A DNA stretch of 64,000 bases, taken from assembly GCF_002208115.1 (NCBI RefSeq), contig NZ_CP020946.1:186001-250000 (forward strand), written 5' to 3'. Each line of letters begins with the position of its first letter. Position 1 is the first letter of the stretch. The notes under the pieces are model-generated. The model did not search any database. It saw only the letters and a list, made by a program, of their open reading frames with translations, and had not been told where the DNA came from. This DNA comes from Bdellovibrio bacteriovorus. Its GTDB lineage: Bacteria > Bdellovibrionota > Bdellovibrionia > Bdellovibrionales > Bdellovibrionaceae. Below are positions 24,359-49,105 of the stretch, piece after piece. Made by a program: the position numbers and the translations under genes.

Positions 24359-24401
24359 AAAGCTCAACGTGTCTATATTTCCGGGCATGTTGAGCTTTTT
24401 T
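24359..24401 (+). terminator. Terminator hairpin overlapping the next gene's start
   Basis: AAAGCTCAACGTG (24359-24371) pairs with CATGTTGAGCTTT (24386-24398) with one G-T, and T6 follows (24396-24401). It terminates the upstream gene, yet its 3' arm contains ATG 24387 and its 5' arm contains GTG 24369, the only starts for the next gene. Confidence 0.75.
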
Positions 24402-25325
24402 ATTTCCCTTCTTCTTTCTTCCGTTTCTCCGGTTCAAGCGGCCACTGTGGGTTCCTGCAAAGGCGTAAACGGTGCAGTTCGTGAAGTGATCTTTCTCGAG
24501 CACCAGGACTGTGAACTGGCGGCAAGTCTGTCTGACATCTTCAATGAAATGGCTCAGACCTTTCAATCCACCGCCTCCGTGAATCTTGTGATCGGGGGGC
24601 CTTCTGATAATGCCAGCTTTGACAACGGCTCTATCGTGCAGGTGCCTTATCGTATGTTGTTTTACGGAAAGTACGGGCGCAGTTACGAAGTGCCGCTTTC
24701 AAATTTGTACGTCAGTGCGGCTCACGAATATGGTCATGCGATTTTCCACGAGGCTCTTCGCAAGTCGGCCGGGGATGAGTATAAAAATCTTTTTGCAAAG
24801 CTGGATGATCTTTCGGCACGCAAGCTGGCAATTCTAAAAGGGGCTTCGGATGTGAATTTTGTCGGTGATTCGACGGCGCTTTACTATTCGCCCGAGTTTC
24901 GTCACATCAGTTCGCGCATGGGGGCGTATTCGGAATTCTTTGCTGATGTGCTGGCTGTGTATCACTTCAATGACCGCCGGGCGATGGTGAAAGCGCTTTA
25001 TCACGATGGTCTTGATGACTTTCAATATAACTATATTCGGATGCGTGATTTTTCTTCTGATCCTGATCCCAAGTGGCAACATCTTATGACCGAAGATCAC
25101 GCCAAGCTCGCGCCCACCAGGGCTTTCGTGGGTCGGCACCTGTGGCCCGAAACTTCGGTTCAGGCCGGGGAGCTGGCGGACTGGATTTTATTTTCGGTGC
25201 TTCGTATGCTGACCGAAGACCTGATGGATGACGAAGAGCCGGAATGGGAACTCGCCAACCAGAATCTGATTCGCGAGCTTGAAAGTTTACCGCCTACAGT
25301 TGGCAAAGCGGCTTCTGTTCGGTAA
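24387..25325 (+). CDS. Exported zinc metalloprotease-like protein (HEYGH)
   Basis: 312 residues from ATG 24387 (318 from GTG 24369). The signal peptide MLSFFISLLLSSVSPVQA suits the ATG. The zinc motif is SAAHEYGHAIFHEAL, and a candidate third ligand helix, YSEFFADVLAV, lies about 75 residues on. Two cysteines near the mature N-terminus may pair. It is a secreted or periplasmic gluzincin-type peptidase by motif, but not of a family I can name. Both possible start codons lie inside a terminator hairpin, so expression may be controlled by that structure. Confidence 0.8.
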   Translation: MLSFFISLLLSSVSPVQAATVGSCKGVNGAVREVIFLEHQDCELAASLSDIFNEMAQTFQSTASVNLVIGGPSDNASFDNGSIVQVPYRMLFYGKYGRSYEVPLSNLYVSAAHEYGHAIFHEALRKSAGDEYKNLFAKLDDLSARKLAILKGASDVNFVGDSTALYYSPEFRHISSRMGAYSEFFADVLAVYHFNDRRAMVKALYHDGLDDFQYNYIRMRDFSSDPDPKWQHLMTEDHAKLAPTRAFVGRHLWPETSVQAGELADWILFSVLRMLTEDLMDDEEPEWELANQNLIRELESLPPTVGKAASVR

Positions 25326-26896: not shown

Positions 26897-26926
26897 ACGC
26901 CGAAGACCCTCTTCGGCGTTTCTATT
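26897..26926 (+). terminator. Terminator after the M15-like lipoprotein gene
   Basis: ACGCCGAAGA (26897-26906) pairs with TCTTCGGCGT (26910-26919), followed by TTCTATTT. A second hairpin, TCCGTCC/GGACGGA (26871-26892), stands just before it. Confidence 0.8.
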
Positions 26927-26993
26927 TGAGCTGGCGGGGCCGCGAGTCTGGCCCGGGACTTGATATCTCCTACTTCCGAAAATAGGAGATGCT

Positions 26994-28211
26994 ATGAAAT
27001 CACTTTTTACCGTCCTTCCGTTTGCTCTGGTTCTGGCGGCTTGTCAGCCGGGTTCTGACTCCAACGGCGACCGTCCCCAAGAAGTCGTTCAGACTGCAAA
27101 TCCCGACGACCCTCAGAATCCGGACTCGAAGTCCACTTCAGAGCCCTCCGTCACAGTGTCTTTAGATCGTGAAGCAGAGCCCGGTGCAGTTATGGTTCGT
27201 ATCACCAAAGATAACAGTTCTTTCGGCATCGAGACGGTCGAAAGACTCGAAGTGAGCTCGGGCACTTCGGTCAGCGTTCCGGTCAACGGGGTGGATGTTG
27301 TTGATCGTCTTACCACCTCACGCAATGACCTGCGCCCTTGGCACTATAAATATGTCATTCACACAAATCACGGCCAGTTGGTTAAAGAGGTTCGGGTTTT
27401 AAAGGATTGGACCTTGGCAGAATCTGTTCGTATCTCTGATTTCAAAATCGAATCCAATCGTATTGAGCTTCGCAAACTGATTCTGAAAGAGGGAGCTGTC
27501 CTGATCACTGAGGGGCGTGACCTGCAGATTGACGCCGATGAACTTCGCAGTGACGCTTACACAAGCCTTCAAACCTTCACCGCTAAAGACATTGAAATGT
27601 CCAACACCACAAAGGTTCCTGGTCAGGGTGGGGGACGTCTGATTCTGAATTTTAAATATGCGACCGGCCTGTTGAAAATTGAAATGCGCGGACATCGCGG
27701 TTCTCGTGGTGAAAAAGGCATTGATGCGACTCAAGAGCGTCCGGCCCAAGCTGCCAGTGGCACGGCGGGAGCATTTCATCCGGGTTTTCCGGGCGGCCTT
27801 GATAACGGTGGCGAGCGTCCGAGCTGTGTCAGACAGCCTACCGACGGTCAGAGAGGTGCGAATGGCGTAGCGGGTGCCGACGGCTTCAATGGCTTCCAAG
27901 GAGGTTCTTCCGGTTCACTTTATCTGACGCTGCAATCAGCAAGGTTCTTTGACTACGAAGTCGTCTTTGTTCCTGGTGAAGGAGGCGAGGGTGGTGAGGG
28001 CGGCAAAGGCCAGCCGGGAGGCTTGGGTGGTCCGGCAGGAGCTTCTGCGCCTCTTTGCAGAAAAGCGAAAGCTGGAGCAGATGGTGCCAGCGGAGCTACC
28101 GGCCTTAAAGGCCAACAAGGCGCTGTGGGTATTTTGGGTGAATTCTGTCTAACGGTGGGGAGCAAAGGCACTTCTTGTGTGACCCGCGATCGATTCTCTG
28201 GAGGTTTATAA
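26994..28211 (+). CDS. Collagen-like lipoprotein
   Basis: 405 residues from ATG 26994 (AGGAGATGCT upstream). The lipobox is LAAC. Residues 25-50 form a Pro/Asp/Ser linker, the middle (50-230) looks like beta sandwich domains, and the last 170 residues contain four Gly-x-y collagen-like runs (GHRGSRGEKG; GQRGANGVAGADG; GEGGEGGEGGKGQPGG; GADGASGATGLKGQQG) separated by short globular pieces with cysteines (PSCVR, PLCRK, EFCL, TSCV). Short broken Gly repeats in bacteria may form triple helices or only flexible Gly-rich loops. Its TAA overlaps the next ATG (TAATG), so both are co-translated. Confidence 0.8.
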   Translation: MKSLFTVLPFALVLAACQPGSDSNGDRPQEVVQTANPDDPQNPDSKSTSEPSVTVSLDREAEPGAVMVRITKDNSSFGIETVERLEVSSGTSVSVPVNGVDVVDRLTTSRNDLRPWHYKYVIHTNHGQLVKEVRVLKDWTLAESVRISDFKIESNRIELRKLILKEGAVLITEGRDLQIDADELRSDAYTSLQTFTAKDIEMSNTTKVPGQGGGRLILNFKYATGLLKIEMRGHRGSRGEKGIDATQERPAQAASGTAGAFHPGFPGGLDNGGERPSCVRQPTDGQRGANGVAGADGFNGFQGGSSGSLYLTLQSARFFDYEVVFVPGEGGEGGEGGKGQPGGLGGPAGASAPLCRKAKAGADGASGATGLKGQQGAVGILGEFCLTVGSKGTSCVTRDRFSGGL

Positions 28212-30931
28212 TGAAAAACAAACTTATTCCCCTGACGGTAAGTGTGGTGCTGACCTTGTCTGCTTGTGCCCCTCAAAAAGAGACAGTGCGGGAGATCGTT
28301 CGTACAGGGGACAGCGCCGATATTCTCGATAACACATCATTATTTCCATTCTGGGAACAGGTGGCGGCGGGCAGAAGCCCGAACCCAGCCCTGGCCGAGC
28401 TGTTGATCCCGTATTTGTCAGAGCAGGATCGCTCCAAGTATCTGACAGCCAATGCGGCTGATGACACTGTTCTTGCGGCACTTGAAAGTGACCGTCAGAT
28501 GGCTAAAAACATTTATCTGCTACAAACCCTGGGCTTCCGAAATGATCCCTCGGTTTTGAATTTTACTTTGAACTATAAATACAACCAGATGTCCTTTAGT
28601 GCGAAGGGCCTCAGGGATGATTTCAATTTGAAATTGCAGATTCAGAGGCAGAATCAGGCCATGGACAGTCTGTTGAAAACTTACTCTGAAAGAGCGCAGA
28701 AGCTGGCAACCGAACTGATGCCGGCCTACATTCAGCAGCTAAGCCCCGAGGATCAGAAAAAACTTTCTGCTGCTGTTAAGGGTCCTCGCGCTGAGGCCAT
28801 TGAAAATACAGTTGAGATCCTGAAACGTTACGACAAAATTCTTGCCGCTTATAGTTTCCACGACGAAGACAACACCAAGCTGGTTGTTATCGGGCTTGTG
28901 GCCGGGGCTGTGGTGGATCACCTGGCAAAGCAACCCAGCATCCAAGAGCTGATTAAGAAAGCCCGTGAGGTCGGAGATATTGCTGCAAAGGTGCGTGAAG
29001 CCGCGTCCTTGGTTCAGCTGATCCAGGACAGTCGTCAAAAGATGGGCGACGACTGGAAGTCGGCCAAAGGCGCCATGGAAGCAATCCTTCAGGAAATCAA
29101 AAAAAGCAAATGGGAGCTTGAGTTCCGCCCAGAGACCCGTGTGGAATCTCTGCGCTTGATGAGCGACGCCCTGACCGGGAATCTGCAGTCCGCCGAGGGG
29201 CAAGGGCCTTTAAGTGAACCACAGGCCATCAATAAGAATATTGAAACATTTGTTAACAGTGCAGCTTCGGCGGCCGGTCGTCTGGACACGATCTTGAATG
29301 CGACGGAAAAACTGGCGGTCACGCTGGGAATCAAAATTGATCCGGGTGTGCAAAAGGCTATTGATACGGCTCGCACTGTGGCCTCGGTAGTAAATCTGAC
29401 TCAGTCGGTGATGAGCGCTTATGCCTCTGGAGGATTGATCGGTGCGATGAGCATGGTGGCTGGTGGTCCGGGGCCGGCATTGATGGGGGCTGTTTCCGGA
29501 GCGGCGATGCAGGCAGAAATGGCGGCCGACCTTAAGGCCATCCGTCGTGAGCTTGCAGAAATCAAACAACTGCAAAAGCAGATGATCGAAATTCAGCTTG
29601 AAACCATGAAAATGATCCGCGAACTCGCAGTTGTTGTTGAAGCTTATCACAAGATAGAAATGCGCAAGCTTCAAGAAATCAAGTCCATGATTGTGATGGA
29701 TATCGAGGCGCAAAGACTTCTCACGCACTCAGAAATTAATTCTTGCGAAAAGATGATTCAATACGGTGTCAGCATGAATGCTGATCGTTCCCAGCCGTAT
29801 CGCTTGGGTAGTGTTCGTACCGTTGAGGCCACAAGGCAGCTTCTGAAAACCTCTTTGCAGGAAAAAGGAGCGCTGGTGCGATTTGCCCGTTCCTCGGGAG
29901 AGTCTAACTATGAAACCTGCCAGCGAAGCATGACCAAAGCTTTTGGCAGCAAAAACGCCAACGAAAATCCGGTTCAGTTTGTGGCAAACTTCCGCAATGA
30001 CGAGCTGGCGACTTTTCACAAAGATATTTACCAGCCTCTGGTGGAAGCTCTTCAAAGCAAAAAGATTATTTCTTATCCGGTCATGCTGACGGGTTTGCAT
30101 CTTCCGGCGGTCAATGCAGATTCTTTAAGACGTAAGGTTGAATATGCAATCCGTGGTGAAGGAGCTGTTCACGGTGTTGAACAGTATGACCTGATCAATC
30201 TGATTTCAACGGAGGGGCTTGAACGCTACGTGGAAAATCTGCTGGTGCTTCATCCAATTCTTTCTTATGACAAGGCTGATTGGCTGGCGGCAGAAAAAGA
30301 CGTCAACACTCTGAAAGAGCGCTACAATATCAGCTGGGCCAGATCTAATTATTGGCTTGAAAATGCGCTGTCTCTGGTGCAGTCCGCGATTGCCCAGGAA
30401 AGTCTGATGGCTGGAGAGCCCTTGATGCCGGGTTTGGCGGATCAGTTTGGCAGCTTGAGTGAAGTCACAGAATGCAGGGAAGACAATCTTCCCAGCCAGC
30501 GTTTGGCGTGTGCCGTCCGTCGCAATGGGATTTTGAACAAGAACCTTCTTGGTTTCGTGATCAGACAGCGTATTCCGGTCGAAGGGTTGCGAACTCACTA
30601 TCAGAAGGCGCTTTCCGGACTTAAGACTCAGGCCCTTGAGCAGGCTTTGGGGTTGGACTTTGCTGGTAAAATCAAAGTGAAAGAGCCTAAAGAAAAGGAG
30701 GAGGGCAAAGAAAAGTATCTGGTCTTTTCCTGGCCGGATAAAGACGGGCTTTACGAAACCCGTTTGCCATCTCCTGATGAAGTCATTCGTGGGGAAATTG
30801 TATATACCAGCAACATGAAGCGCCTGCTGGTACTTCAGGATAAGCTGATTGAAGCCTATCTTGAGGTGACTCCAATGGCGGTGGATGAAAGCGTGCAAAA
30901 ACAAGTGCGCCGGATGATTCTGCAGAAATAA
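28211..30931 (+). CDS. Large alpha-helical lipoprotein of unknown function
   Basis: 906 residues from ATG 28211 (GGAGG upstream). The lipobox is LSAC. Most of the chain is predicted helical. Hydrophobic segments lie around residues 222-236 (LVVIGLVAGAVV) and 402-433 (a Gly/Ala-rich stretch such as GGLIGAMSMVAGG), followed by a long coiled coil (436-506). This helix-hydrophobic hairpin-helix plan recalls alpha-pore-forming proteins, but no family is recognised and that reading is speculative. Four or more cysteines in the C-terminal half could pair. It is co-translated with the collagen-like lipoprotein. Confidence 0.75.
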   Translation: MKNKLIPLTVSVVLTLSACAPQKETVREIVRTGDSADILDNTSLFPFWEQVAAGRSPNPALAELLIPYLSEQDRSKYLTANAADDTVLAALESDRQMAKNIYLLQTLGFRNDPSVLNFTLNYKYNQMSFSAKGLRDDFNLKLQIQRQNQAMDSLLKTYSERAQKLATELMPAYIQQLSPEDQKKLSAAVKGPRAEAIENTVEILKRYDKILAAYSFHDEDNTKLVVIGLVAGAVVDHLAKQPSIQELIKKAREVGDIAAKVREAASLVQLIQDSRQKMGDDWKSAKGAMEAILQEIKKSKWELEFRPETRVESLRLMSDALTGNLQSAEGQGPLSEPQAINKNIETFVNSAASAAGRLDTILNATEKLAVTLGIKIDPGVQKAIDTARTVASVVNLTQSVMSAYASGGLIGAMSMVAGGPGPALMGAVSGAAMQAEMAADLKAIRRELAEIKQLQKQMIEIQLETMKMIRELAVVVEAYHKIEMRKLQEIKSMIVMDIEAQRLLTHSEINSCEKMIQYGVSMNADRSQPYRLGSVRTVEATRQLLKTSLQEKGALVRFARSSGESNYETCQRSMTKAFGSKNANENPVQFVANFRNDELATFHKDIYQPLVEALQSKKIISYPVMLTGLHLPAVNADSLRRKVEYAIRGEGAVHGVEQYDLINLISTEGLERYVENLLVLHPILSYDKADWLAAEKDVNTLKERYNISWARSNYWLENALSLVQSAIAQESLMAGEPLMPGLADQFGSLSEVTECREDNLPSQRLACAVRRNGILNKNLLGFVIRQRIPVEGLRTHYQKALSGLKTQALEQALGLDFAGKIKVKEPKEKEEGKEKYLVFSWPDKDGLYETRLPSPDEVIRGEIVYTSNMKRLLVLQDKLIEAYLEVTPMAVDESVQKQVRRMILQK

Positions 30932-32403: not shown

Positions 32404-33006
32404 CTATTTCAAAAGCGCTCGTTCCAGAAAGACCAGATGGCCGTCGATAGCTTCGTTCAAAGCGGCCTTATTGGTCAGGCTTTGGAATTGACCATCGATC
32501 ATCAAAACCGAGAAACCATGAATGCCGGACCAAACCGACCGGCCCGCCTCTTCGGGATTGGATTTTTTAAAGATCTGGGACTTCATGCCGTCGTGCAGGC
32601 AGTCGGCCAGAATCGCAAAGGCCTTATAGCCCGCGGCTTCAAGCTCTGCGCGCTGGTCTTTGGCGCAGCGAAGCTCCTGATGAAACATCGCCCGGTAATG
32701 ACCTGAATGGCTTAAGGCAAACTCAATATAAGTTCTTCCCAAAGCCGTGAGACGCTGACGGGGGCTGCGAAGGCCTGCGGTGGAATTTTCAAAAGCGGCA
32801 ATAAGGTTGTTAAAACCCTCTTCGGCGATATGTGAAAGCAGATCCTGCTTGGATTTAAAGTGGCGGTAAACAGCGGTGTGGCTCACTTTGAGGCTTTGCG
32901 CGATTTCGCGTAAAGTAAAATCGGCTTCGCCTTTTTTTTGAATGATTTCAACCGTCTTTTTAATGGCGGCCGTTTTAAGGTCACCATGATGATATGTCTT
33001 TGCCAT
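32404..33006 (-). CDS. TetR-family transcriptional regulator
   Basis: 200 residues. The N-terminal helix-turn-helix (ADFTLREIAQSLKVSHTAVY-RHFKSKQDLL) is typical TetR; the C-terminal ligand domain is all-helical. It is divergent from the DoxX/quinone reductase operon, and the 64-bp spacer holds a long palindrome that is its likely operator. It therefore probably represses both itself and that operon; an electrophile or quinone-type inducer is an inference from the target genes. Confidence 0.9.
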   Translation of the reverse strand: MAKTYHHGDLKTAAIKKTVEIIQKKGEADFTLREIAQSLKVSHTAVYRHFKSKQDLLSHIAEEGFNNLIAAFENSTAGLRSPRQRLTALGRTYIEFALSHSGHYRAMFHQELRCAKDQRAELEAAGYKAFAILADCLHDGMKSQIFKKSNPEEAGRSVWSGIHGFSVLMIDGQFQSLTNKAALNEAIDGHLVFLERALLK

Positions 33007-45905: not shown

Positions 45906-46706
45906 GTGGCAACGATTGACGGAATTCAAATATATAAAGATCCGACTATATGTCTGTGCATCATCAACTCTTTCACTCCCGCTCTTAAAGAGTGTGCAAA
46001 GAAGCGACTTGTATCTGTGTGCCATGGTTCAAGTAGGGCTGAACTAGACGGTGAGTTCTATACATATAATTCCACTATCAAAGAGTTTTGGGAGAGGCTG
46101 AAAGAAAAAGACCCGCCGAAGAAAATGGGAATGGTCGCGGAATTTTTAACCCATGTTCTAATTTTGGAAATCTTTAAGGACTTCTTTCCTGCCAGTGTAT
46201 TCTTCAATCTTGAAGAGCGGAGCGTAAAAAAAGGTTTTGATCTGGTTTTTAAAAATAAAGCGGAGATATGGATAACGGAAATCAAATCAGGGCTCAAAAA
46301 CACTACAGACACATCTAATGATCGCATTAAAGAGCTAATTTCGATCGCCAAGAGAGATATCAAAGAGAAATTAAAAGAAGATCGATCTACCCTGTGGCAA
46401 AATGCAGTTAATCATGTGGACATTGCTTTAGTCCAAAGCGACGAGCGTAAGGCTATCAAATCTATTCTGATGCAAGGTAAAACGGCAGCCCTTGCTGGAA
46501 CTGCTCAACATCAAAATCATAATGTGGTTCTTGTAGCAGGTCTGTTTGCGAACGTAAGCGACCTCATACAGGACACGACCATTAAAATGGCGGCACAAGC
46601 AATTCGAAATGAGAATATTTTTAAAAAGGAAATCGTCATAGCCTTTCAAAAGAACACTTTTGAAACTGTTGTTAACTTTTTTGAAAGCGAAGCGCAGAAT
46701 GCCTGA
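45906..46706 (+). CDS. hamA: HamA, DUF1837 nuclease of a Hachiman defence system
   Basis: 266 residues from GTG 45906, the only start after an in-frame stop at 45879; no ribosome site is seen. The sequence GMVAEFLTHVLILEIFK, then KKGFDLVF and WITEIKSG, matches the DUF1837 HamA fold with PD-(D/E)xK-like residues Asp, Glu and Lys. HamA is the nuclease effector held by HamB until DNA damage or phage replication intermediates trigger it. The last 8 nt overlap hamB (ATGCCTGA). Strongly AT-rich codon use. Confidence 0.8.
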   Translation: MATIDGIQIYKDPTICLCIINSFTPALKECAKKRLVSVCHGSSRAELDGEFYTYNSTIKEFWERLKEKDPPKKMGMVAEFLTHVLILEIFKDFFPASVFFNLEERSVKKGFDLVFKNKAEIWITEIKSGLKNTTDTSNDRIKELISIAKRDIKEKLKEDRSTLWQNAVNHVDIALVQSDERKAIKSILMQGKTAALAGTAQHQNHNVVLVAGLFANVSDLIQDTTIKMAAQAIRNENIFKKEIVIAFQKNTFETVVNFFESEAQNA

Positions 46707-48237
46707 TATTACTTTTACCACCCTTAGAAAGAAGGACGGGGATTTTACGGCGTTTCGTGAGCTTTATACTAAGCTCTTACTAAACCAGCAGCTAGATGAA
46801 TTTCAACTTCAAAAGCTATTACAGATTGCAATCGTGTTCCTAAACTCAAAACGCGAACTTGTTCGATTTTTCGGCTATCGAATAATTCTTCAATATGCCT
46901 TGGCAAAAAACGATTTTACTGCTTTGAACGACATCTCCTTAAACTTGGGATATATTCCCATCTCAAAAATCCTGGAAAAAACATCTATCAATTCAGAATT
47001 TCAGGGAGAGTTTTTTAAAGAATTTCTGAGTTCTTATAAAAACTCCTTTCGCACAAGTGCTGGAACCTTTTTGACAGAGGGGCAGCGTGCTTTGCAGAGA
47101 GATCTTTTTGATAAGAAGAAAGACTCTAATAATGTCGTAATCGCGCCCACCTCATACGGTAAGTCGGAGGCCATTGTCTCTACAGCTCTCGAGGTTCCAA
47201 AGAGCTGTATCATTGTCCCAACAAAAGCACTTTTAGCGCAGACCAAGAAACGCTTCCTAAACTCTGGCGCTGATCTATCCGCAAAGACGATAATTATTCA
47301 TCATGAAATGTATTCGCCTTCTCAAGACAATTTAATTGCAATTCTCACCCAGGAAAGGTTGTTGAGTCTTTTGCAAGAGAATCCCAAGGCATACTTTGAT
47401 AAAGTTTATGTGGATGAGGCACATAACTTATTGGAAAAGGATTCAAGAGCAAACTTACTCGCCTCTTGCTTGGTTCTCTTGAAGTATCGAAATAAGAATA
47501 CGGTTTTCAATTTTTTTACACCATTCTTAAATGATGCGAGAAATCTTGAAACCAAGTTTCTTAGCTTGAATGCAGCTGAGCTTCGTAAAAATGAATATAT
47601 AAAATCCGAGAAAATATTCTTGATTGATTTTAGAAGGTCCGATGAGGCCTTGCTCCACTTGTATGATCAGTTCATGAATGAATTTATTGAGATTCCAGAG
47701 GCTACATATCGTTCTGATGTTGAATTTATAAATAGGCAGGCAGCTCATAAAAACATCATATACTTTAATACACCTAAAGATGTAGAATCGTATTGTTCTC
47801 AACTAATAAAAAGCCGACCTCTGATAACTTCAGATTTTGTGTCAAAAGCATATGAAAGTATTAAAAACTACATTCATAAAGACTATTTTTTGCTGAGATG
47901 CCTGTCTCGGGGAATTGTTTATCATCACGGCTCGATGCCAGATAACGTAAAGTTGTATATAGAGCAACTCTACATTGAAGAGCCACAGATTCAGTTTATA
48001 GTTACAACGTCGACGCTTCTTGAAGGCGTCAATATCCCAGCAGATCAAATCTTTATAATGTCGACGTCTAAAGGCATTCGGGATTTGTCATCATCTCAGT
48101 TTAAAAACTTAATTGGCCGGGTGTGTCGATATGGTGACATTTTTTCTGGCGGGAATCCCGAAAATCTTCAAAAGCTTATGCCGAAGATATTCTTGCTAGG
48201 AACAGAGTACTCGAGATCAAAATACAGAGGTAGATGA
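46699..48237 (+). CDS. hamB: HamB helicase, 5' part (frameshifted)
   Basis: 512 residues from ATG 46699, overlapping hamA. An SF2 helicase core: Walker A variant VIAPTSYGKSEA, motif II VYVDEAHNL, a late motif TSTLLEGVNIPADQ and motif VI LIGRVCR. The frame ends early at TGA 48235. The C-terminal domain continues in the +1 frame (48260-49105). An A4 run at 48219-48222, if A3, would give a continuous 802-codon gene, a normal HamB length. In Hachiman, HamB senses DNA and controls HamA. Confidence 0.75.
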   Translation: MPDITFTTLRKKDGDFTAFRELYTKLLLNQQLDEFQLQKLLQIAIVFLNSKRELVRFFGYRIILQYALAKNDFTALNDISLNLGYIPISKILEKTSINSEFQGEFFKEFLSSYKNSFRTSAGTFLTEGQRALQRDLFDKKKDSNNVVIAPTSYGKSEAIVSTALEVPKSCIIVPTKALLAQTKKRFLNSGADLSAKTIIIHHEMYSPSQDNLIAILTQERLLSLLQENPKAYFDKVYVDEAHNLLEKDSRANLLASCLVLLKYRNKNTVFNFFTPFLNDARNLETKFLSLNAAELRKNEYIKSEKIFLIDFRRSDEALLHLYDQFMNEFIEIPEATYRSDVEFINRQAAHKNIIYFNTPKDVESYCSQLIKSRPLITSDFVSKAYESIKNYIHKDYFLLRCLSRGIVYHHGSMPDNVKLYIEQLYIEEPQIQFIVTTSTLLEGVNIPADQIFIMSTSKGIRDLSSSQFKNLIGRVCRYGDIFSGGNPENLQKLMPKIFLLGTEYSRSKYRGR

Positions 48238-48259
48238 TAAGTCGACAGAAAAATCTCTT

Positions 48260-49105
48260 GTGGAGTTGATGGAAAGTATTGAAAAAAATTCAACTGGCGT
48301 CGAGGTGAGAAGAGCTACCACAGCATTTGGAAAATCATGTTTCAAAAATCGCATTTCAGAATTCGATATTTTTGAATTTGAGGGAGAAGGTCAAGAGAGT
48401 GTCGAGGCGCTGTTGTATGCCAAGAGAAAGGCCGATGACGTCCTGAAGGTCATGGAATTGGTCTTTGAGCTATTCGTGGAGCCTGTAAGAAGTAAATATA
48501 TAGATTCGGGCAATGATGATCTTCTTAAGAAGGAGTATAAATTCTTTCAGCTGGCAATCCAAGGGGCCCGAAATGCTTATGCCATGTATTTACGTTGGAA
48601 ATCAGAAAGCATTTCTTTCAGTCAAATGATTGCAGTTGTTGTGCAGCATTGGAAGCAAAATAACGAAGATGGGCTTGTCTATGTTGGCAAATGGGGCGAT
48701 GTCAGTAGGGATAGGATGGGTATATGGAAAAACTGGATAAATATAAAAAAGAAGACTGAATACGAATTGGTAAACATTGCCATTGTGAGAGTCAAGGATG
48801 AGCAAGACTATGTTGATCATTCTCTATTCAAGTTTATTGAAGTTCTAAATGATATGGGACTTGTTGAGGAAGACTTATTCCTGAAATTGAAGTACGGTAC
48901 TGCAGATCAAAATAAGATATTTTTTATCAAGGCTGGCTTTAGCTCGTCATTAACAAACCTATTGATTAATAAGTACAAGGATAAAGTGACTTTTGATATA
49001 GAGAAGAATGTGATTGTGATAGATCCAACTCTAATTGTAATGATGAATCAGAACGAGGAAAATGAGATCGTGATTCATGAAGTTACATATCACATCAAAT
49101 CTTAG
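48260..49105 (+). pseudogene. hamB: HamB C-terminal part, out of frame
   Basis: 281 residues from GTG 48260 with no ribosome site. Its frame can be read back through DDKSTEKSLVELMES to the A4 run near 48220, where it joins the helicase frame. The sequence is helical and charged (for example YLRWKSESISFSQMIAVVVQ) and shows no motif of its own. It is most simply the C-terminal domain of the broken hamB; independent translation is possible but unsupported. Confidence 0.65.

Follow-up and report, generated by a model that had tools for sequence, protein, structure and literature searches.

The stretch of DNA analysed here (the window) comprises 64,000 nucleotides of Bdellovibrio bacteriovorus (contig NZ_CP020946.1, positions 186,001 to 250,000), from a genome of ~3.77 Mb in one contig, and contains two adjacent lipoprotein genes, here called P1 and P2 (Table 1). 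A preliminary description made from the letters alone had reported these as a co-translated pair joined by TAATG, and this holds: both open reading frames are present with a lipobox in each, and the last A of the P1 stop codon TAA (28209-28211) is the first base of the P2 start codon ATG (28211-28213). A terminator-like hairpin (-17.5 kcal/mol, z -3.55) ends the preceding gene, so that the pair starts its own unit. A second (-20.6 kcal/mol, z -4.7) follows P2 and is usable from both strands, the icd-type gene downstream being convergent. With terminator-like hairpins before and after them, P1 and P2 look like a closed bicistronic unit.

Table 1. Features of the P1-P2 operon (window coordinates; pLDDT, predicted local distance difference test score)
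Feature	Position	Strand	Basis
Terminator-like hairpin with T-rich tail, end of preceding lipoprotein gene	26897..26927	+	fold
Ribosome-binding-site-like AGGAGA of P1	26984..26989	+	by eye
P1 gene, 405-residue lipoprotein with Gly-X-X blocks	26994..28211	+	open reading frame; predicted fold
P1 signal peptide and lipobox LAAC (Cys17, +2 Gln)	26994..27044	+	sequence
P1 beta-strand-rich, beta-helix-like part, residues 116-232	27339..27689	+	predicted fold, structural matches
P1 Gly-X-X block 1, residues 233-244	27690..27725	+	pLDDT 89-92
P1 variable loop, residues 257-283	27762..27842	+	family alignment, low pLDDT
P1 Gly-X-X block 2, residues 285-305	27846..27908	+	pLDDT 93-95
P1 Gly-X-X block 3, residues 328-351, one phase break	27975..28046	+	pLDDT 93-94
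P1 second variable loop, residues 352-360	28047..28073	+	family alignment
P1 Gly-X-X block 4, residues 361-384	28074..28145	+	pLDDT ~95
Ribosome-binding-site-like GGAGG of P2, within P1 3' end	28200..28204	+	by eye
TAATG, P1 stop / P2 start overlap	28209..28213	+	sequence; spacing -4 to +20 nucleotides in 21/21 pairs
P2 gene, 906-residue helical lipoprotein	28211..30931	+	open reading frame; structure prediction
P2 signal peptide and lipobox LSAC (Cys19, +2 Ala)	28211..28267	+	sequence
P2 predicted long helix, residues 242-305	28934..29125	+	structure prediction, low to moderate pLDDT
P2 uncharged Gly/Ala-rich stretch, residues 389-435	29375..29515	+	charge scan of paired members
P2 predicted 64-residue coiled-coil-like helix, residues 442-505	29534..29725	+	alignment, structure prediction
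P2 C-terminal helical region, residues 511-906	29741..30928	+	alignment, structure prediction
Terminator-like hairpin 3' of P2	30935..30962	+	fold, sequence

Relatives of P2 were sought in 60 near genomes, by profile in 369 genomes of the phylum and by a pattern scan of 84,980 species genomes. They were found in 11 of the near genomes and 35 of the phylum genomes, and the pattern scan returned 11 loci, all of Bdellovibrionota type (the P2 of locus L094 being the same as that in one genome of the phylum search). P1 lies directly upstream of P2, with a spacing of -4 to +20 nucleotides, in 21 intact loci, which come from Bdellovibrio and Bacteriovoracaceae. Wherever upstream sequence is available for a P2 locus of the paired clade, a P1 gene on the same strand immediately precedes P2. 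The trees of the two proteins are nearly congruent, with a matrix correlation of r = 0.87 (to which shared species descent contributes) against a maximum of 0.37 in 5,000 permutations. The search for co-occurring homologues proposed in the preliminary description thus bears out the pairing. Three separate copies of the complete pair occur in one genome (L051-L053), and the pair is located at several different genomic sites; it has therefore either travelled as a unit or been kept as one. As far as searched, the pair appears to be restricted to Bdellovibrionota. No relative was found among plasmids, phage records and viral contigs, the P1 profile being too loosely conserved for a viral scan. 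Neither protein matches a named family in the Pfam and NCBIfam libraries, and no family, structure or paper describing the pair, including any linking Bdellovibrio with such a pair, was found in the sources searched, which is in agreement with the earlier view of a pair without a described system.

That view was to be given up should the homologues regularly be found apart. For P2 the pairing is upheld, whereas P1-type domains often stand alone. The domain spanning P1 residues 150-405 also occurs in many relatives as part of lipoproteins that lack a P2, and the same genome encodes a second, stand-alone P1-type Gly-X-X lipoprotein of 311 residues and CVEVRD type (G000:C1:3226787-3227506; L003, L059:6794-7729), the location of which is conserved among other Bdellovibrio. 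In the P1 tree the paired members lie apart from the stand-alone ones with the single exception of L060, which falls inside the paired group and has probably lost its P2. A divergent branch of P2 (L057, L058 and L117; E 1e-19 to 1e-31 with a core-only profile) lacks P1 and has directly upstream a conserved, secreted partner of coiled-coil type (134-150 residues; pairwise E 1e-25 to 1e-42). These three loci suggest that P2 may be a shared core whose upstream partner can be exchanged. In genomes G003 and G007 the divergent P2 branch sits at the chromosomal site which in G001 and G009 holds a stand-alone P1-type gene. In three Bacteriovoracaceae loci P2 is immediately followed by a small gene for a secreted Cys-rich protein (L087:10780-11106, L088:4622-4948 and L090:5081-5476), which may be a third component of the module in those organisms.

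The divergence of the operon was assessed against two genomes of the genus, presumed to be those of B. bacteriovorus HD100 and Tiberius. Protein identity was compared in the part of the window that is syntenic with the presumed HD100 genome, and nonsynonymous (pN) and synonymous (pS) differences per site were compared for 27 genes of the window. The pair is present in that genome. Most of the syntenic genes are 95-99% identical to their counterparts there at the protein level; P1 and P2 are 55% and 65% identical (77% and 90% to the presumed Tiberius proteins), and nucleotide identity falls and then recovers at the operon ends. The pN values of P1 (0.302) and P2 (0.214) are the two highest of the 27 genes and their pS values, at 0.67-0.69, are near saturation. 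Together with the change in identity at the operon ends, this shows that divergent alleles have been swapped or maintained at one fixed site, as is common for surface proteins. Positive selection as the only cause of the divergence was rejected, synonymous sites being near saturation too. Within P1, the tract at 27881-28060 is 95-100% identical in DNA to the presumed Tiberius genome between strongly diverged flanks, which suggests recent local recombination. In two further genes near the operon, at 24369-25325 and 32404-33006, identity to the presumed HD100 genome is also unusually low (76-79%) and synonymous divergence high, and the region may be a recombination hot spot.

P1 contains four runs of at least four Gly-X-X triplets (4, 7, 4 and 8 triplets), between which lie loops and strands; none of 20,000 shuffles that kept the composition of residues 226-405 reached their total. 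Proline is absent from the 23 triplets of P1 and makes up 0-13% in relatives, in which a block length of 7 triplets is frequent. In a model generated by AlphaFold2 with a ten-sequence alignment, pLDDT is ~85-95 over most of residues 140-405, with the exception of the loop at 261-280 and of residues ~201-210; for residues 1-108 confidence is very low. Long strands were assigned by DSSP at 156-164, 177-193, 215-232 and 308-326. The Gly blocks (pLDDT 89-95), folded inside a single chain, are confident yet without DSSP assignment, as expected for polyproline II (PPII) helices. The structure prediction that had been proposed as a check thus returned, for P1 alone, a confident single-chain fold of these blocks. 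Structural comparison of the model gave matches to the snow flea antifreeze protein (2pne/3bog; Z 5.5, 1.6 Å over 57 residues), to a springtail antifreeze protein with nine PPII helices (Z 5.0), to gp38 of phage PP01 (9v85; Z 4.8, 4.1 Å over 131 residues, below the aligner's specific level) and to beta-helix proteins, passengers included (Z up to 7.3). These Z values are modest; more informative is the low root-mean-square deviation (rmsd) from pure PPII bundles, which locally provide the best match to the Gly blocks.

Insertions and deletions within the bundle region of the P1 family cluster in the loop at 257-283 and after residue 356, and none falls in blocks 2 and 3. The first of these loops, which contains the conserved Cys278, has the greatest length variation in the family and low pLDDT; the second contains the conserved Cys355 and relatives insert up to 52 residues in it. 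P1 has no Pfam match up to E = 1, the Collagen model included, and Collagen is matched weakly by two of ten relatives (best E 0.0065); matches of P1 to PDB sequences, mainly collagen peptides, were set aside. Because of the single-chain packing, the low rmsd to PPII bundles and the short, Pro-poor blocks, the Gly blocks are, with high probability, a bundle of polyglycine II (PGII) type rather than collagen. Of the ‘four collagen-like Gly-x-y blocks’ noted originally, the four blocks are beyond chance and the likeness to collagen is not supported. The predicted succession of beta-helix, Gly bundle and indel-rich loops agrees in architecture with the receptor-binding tips formed by gp38 of T-even phages, although the structural match to gp38 is not specific.

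P2 had been described as a very long helical protein with Gly/Ala-rich segments and a coiled coil, and indeed a stretch of 47 residues free of charge (389-435), a length that none of 300 shuffles attained, precedes a predicted 64-residue helix. The longest uncharged stretch maps to this position in all 21 paired members, with a length of 20-49 residues; since in about a third of them the length by itself is unexceptional, it is the conserved position that constitutes the evidence. Distant members have comparable Gly/Ala-rich stretches near residues 50-140 and ~400. P2 is consistently predicted to be all-helical, with 64-residue helices at 242-305 and 442-505, and the model reaches a pLDDT of 70-88 in places in the C-terminal part (511-906), which is the most conserved and carries conserved cysteines at 512, 570, 755 and 767. 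The top structural match, colicin Ia (Z 8.4), was rejected on account of an rmsd of 32.6 Å with a low-confidence model; PDB sequence matches, mainly designed coiled coils, were set aside, and Kdo_hydroxy, ANAPC4 and similar single matches in the family libraries were at chance level. By its sequence P2 appears to be a protein family of its own, a large one without described function. A Gly/Ala segment before a predicted coiled coil would fit a membrane-active or a tightly packed hairpin, and pore formation is possible. Of the earlier likening of P2 to an alpha-pore former, the conserved order of Gly/Ala-rich segment and long coiled coil stands, and a convincing fold match is missing in a model of such low mean pLDDT (see below). 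ClyA-type proteins, with their five-helix-bundle fold, are not among the matches listed, which with so poor a model says nothing either way.

The known predator adhesins are redundant (PMC11003981). Here a strictly paired, fast-diverging lipoprotein operon has one partner with a predicted fold of phage-tip or antifreeze type. Its layout, the lipoboxes, the co-inheritance, the accelerated divergence and the conserved uncharged segment, taken with the predicted fold of P1 and helicity of P2, lead us to favour, tentatively and short of calling it probable, a contact module in which P1 would be an adhesin and P2 a membrane-active stalk. That the two form a physical complex is probable. From these data we infer a location on the outer-membrane surface, target binding, membrane insertion and a link to predation. 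Both lipoproteins would be displayed on the outer surface, P1 as a lipid-anchored adhesin with a flexible tether, a beta-helix and then a PGII-type bundle with projecting loops of variable length, and P2 as a co-translated, lipid-anchored helical stalk with its uncharged Gly/Ala segment just before a coiled coil of ~95 Å. The loops of P1 would bind a surface structure of the target cell, and P2 might then span or enter the facing membrane through the Gly/Ala segment and so hold or perforate the target. A more specific version, a two-component contact-dependent device in which a phage-tip-like polyglycine P1 selects the target, the lipid-anchored P2 inserts and the P2 core swaps upstream partners, is rather unlikely.

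No lipobox found has an Asp at position +2, which under the enterobacterial sorting rule is consistent with sorting to the outer membrane.

A number of points weigh against a contact module. Binding, pore formation and surface location are steps of inference, the gp38 match of P1 lies below the specific level, and PGII bundles also occur in unrelated functions, including Obg, antifreeze proteins and carboxylases (PMC8409303). The P2 model has a mean pLDDT of 56 and a predicted template modelling score of 0.47, its structural matches are generic helical bundles, its hydrophobicity, on a 19-residue scale, peaks at a moderate 1.28 in the Gly/Ala segment, and the length of the uncharged stretch is compatible with chance in about a third of the 21 members. 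The high synonymous divergence is suggestive of alleles that are old or were imported no less than of positive selection. In genome G013, P1 is split by an insertion element with transposase genes while P2 is intact (L056:7262-8466). Pair-type P2 is present in 9 of the 24 Bdellovibrio genomes searched, and because of this it is dispensable for predation in general. Prey interaction, as in the original suggestion of a ‘surface or prey-interaction complex’, is plausible by lineage, surface-type evolution and fold analogy only.

Most of this evidence is shared with other explanations. P1 and P2 could be a scaffold of the predator's own envelope, a structural layer or spacer without a prey target whose variation reflects escape from phages or other enemies. 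We consider this unlikely, if worth serious attention: it would account for the patchiness within the genus, the disrupted P1, the allelic divergence inside an otherwise conserved region and the many relatives with stand-alone P1-type lipoproteins, but the conserved uncharged Gly/Ala stretch and the loop-focused indels of P1 suggest a more specific job, and a passive spacer would not need two lipid anchors. Alternatively both proteins may face the periplasm, as Gram-negative proteins with a lipobox mostly do, P2 serving as a tether or assembly factor and P1 as a rigid cap. The conserved cysteines of P2 and Cys278 and Cys355 of P1 fit an oxidising compartment, the periplasm included; however, fast divergence of the pair and indels in the P1 loops are not typical of a housekeeping component of the periplasm, and we regard such an arrangement as improbable. 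Myxobacteria exchange polymorphic lipoproteins, and strain-level allelic divergence confined to an operon that encodes two lipoproteins could likewise serve predator cells in excluding or recognising relatives, but no constant, immunity-like third gene stands beside the pair in the loci examined. We consider recognition of kin or strain distinctly improbable. A collagen-type trimer, in which the blocks of three P1 chains would form a triple helix, has in its favour the Gly at every third position and the weak Collagen matches of relatives and is very improbable indeed given blocks of 4-8 triplets devoid of Pro, frequently of 7 triplets in relatives, the confident single-chain packing and the antifreeze-bundle match.

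Elsewhere in the window, at 45906-49105, lies a block of three genes in which a DEAD-box/ResIII helicase stands between genes without known function. It has no match in the examined syntenic part of the presumed HD100 genome, is 34-41% similar in the presumed Tiberius genome and is possibly a variable defence-type locus.

Among known systems, gp38 of T-even phages unites a beta-helix with a PGII sandwich and with receptor loops, and Gly-rich motifs flank its hypervariable regions (PMC12892980). The predicted P1 would resemble gp38 of S16 and PP01 in having a beta-helix followed by packed Gly-rich PPII helices, and the P1 family likewise shows variable loops between conserved Gly motifs in the bundle region. 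In contrast to P1, a bacterial lipoprotein with P2 as partner, gp38 is a phage protein carried on the gp37 trimer. No sequence match to P1 was found by tblastn in 50,697 phage records (E 1e-3, low-complexity filter on), and its matches in PHROG are weak and probably compositional. Judged by sequence, P1 is not a member of the gp38 family, while its predicted fold is like that of known PGII proteins. Proteins with Gly-rich PPII bundles include Obg, carboxylases, antifreeze proteins and the tips of T-even phages (PMC8409303). In the model P1 shares with the snow flea and springtail proteins and Obg the packing, within a single chain, of repeated short Gly-X-X helices of much the same length, but it lacks an antifreeze or ribosome context and adds the beta-helix part, the loops and a lipid anchor. 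Bacterial collagen-like proteins of Scl type also have Gly-X-Y repeats; unlike these, P1 has no long uninterrupted Pro-containing tract and is predicted to fold as a single chain.

For P2 the nearest comparison is with the ClyA-like alpha-pore-forming toxins, which include the two-component XaxAB and YaxAB (PMC6162564). No match of P2 to these was found in PDB sequence searches or among the structural matches listed. The likeness would lie in two components and in an apolar segment set between long helices, as residues 389-435 lie between predicted helices of P2, though with moderate hydrophobicity. P2 differs in its 906 residues, lipid anchor and four conserved cysteines, and P1 is not a helical toxin. 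Two kinds of predator surface protein in Bdellovibrio are closer in context. The MAT fibres are phage-fibre-like, trimeric structures of prey contact with a conserved beta-rich domain of ~130 residues after the signal peptide (PMC10769870), and Bd0875 of B. bacteriovorus is a MIDAS adhesin with a lipobox and a VWA domain on the outer surface (PMC11003981). Compared by their descriptions, neither the trimeric MAT fibres nor the VWA protein Bd0875 is described as a pair of Gly-X-X and helical lipoproteins, while Bd0875 provides a precedent for a predator protein that has a lipobox and faces outwards.

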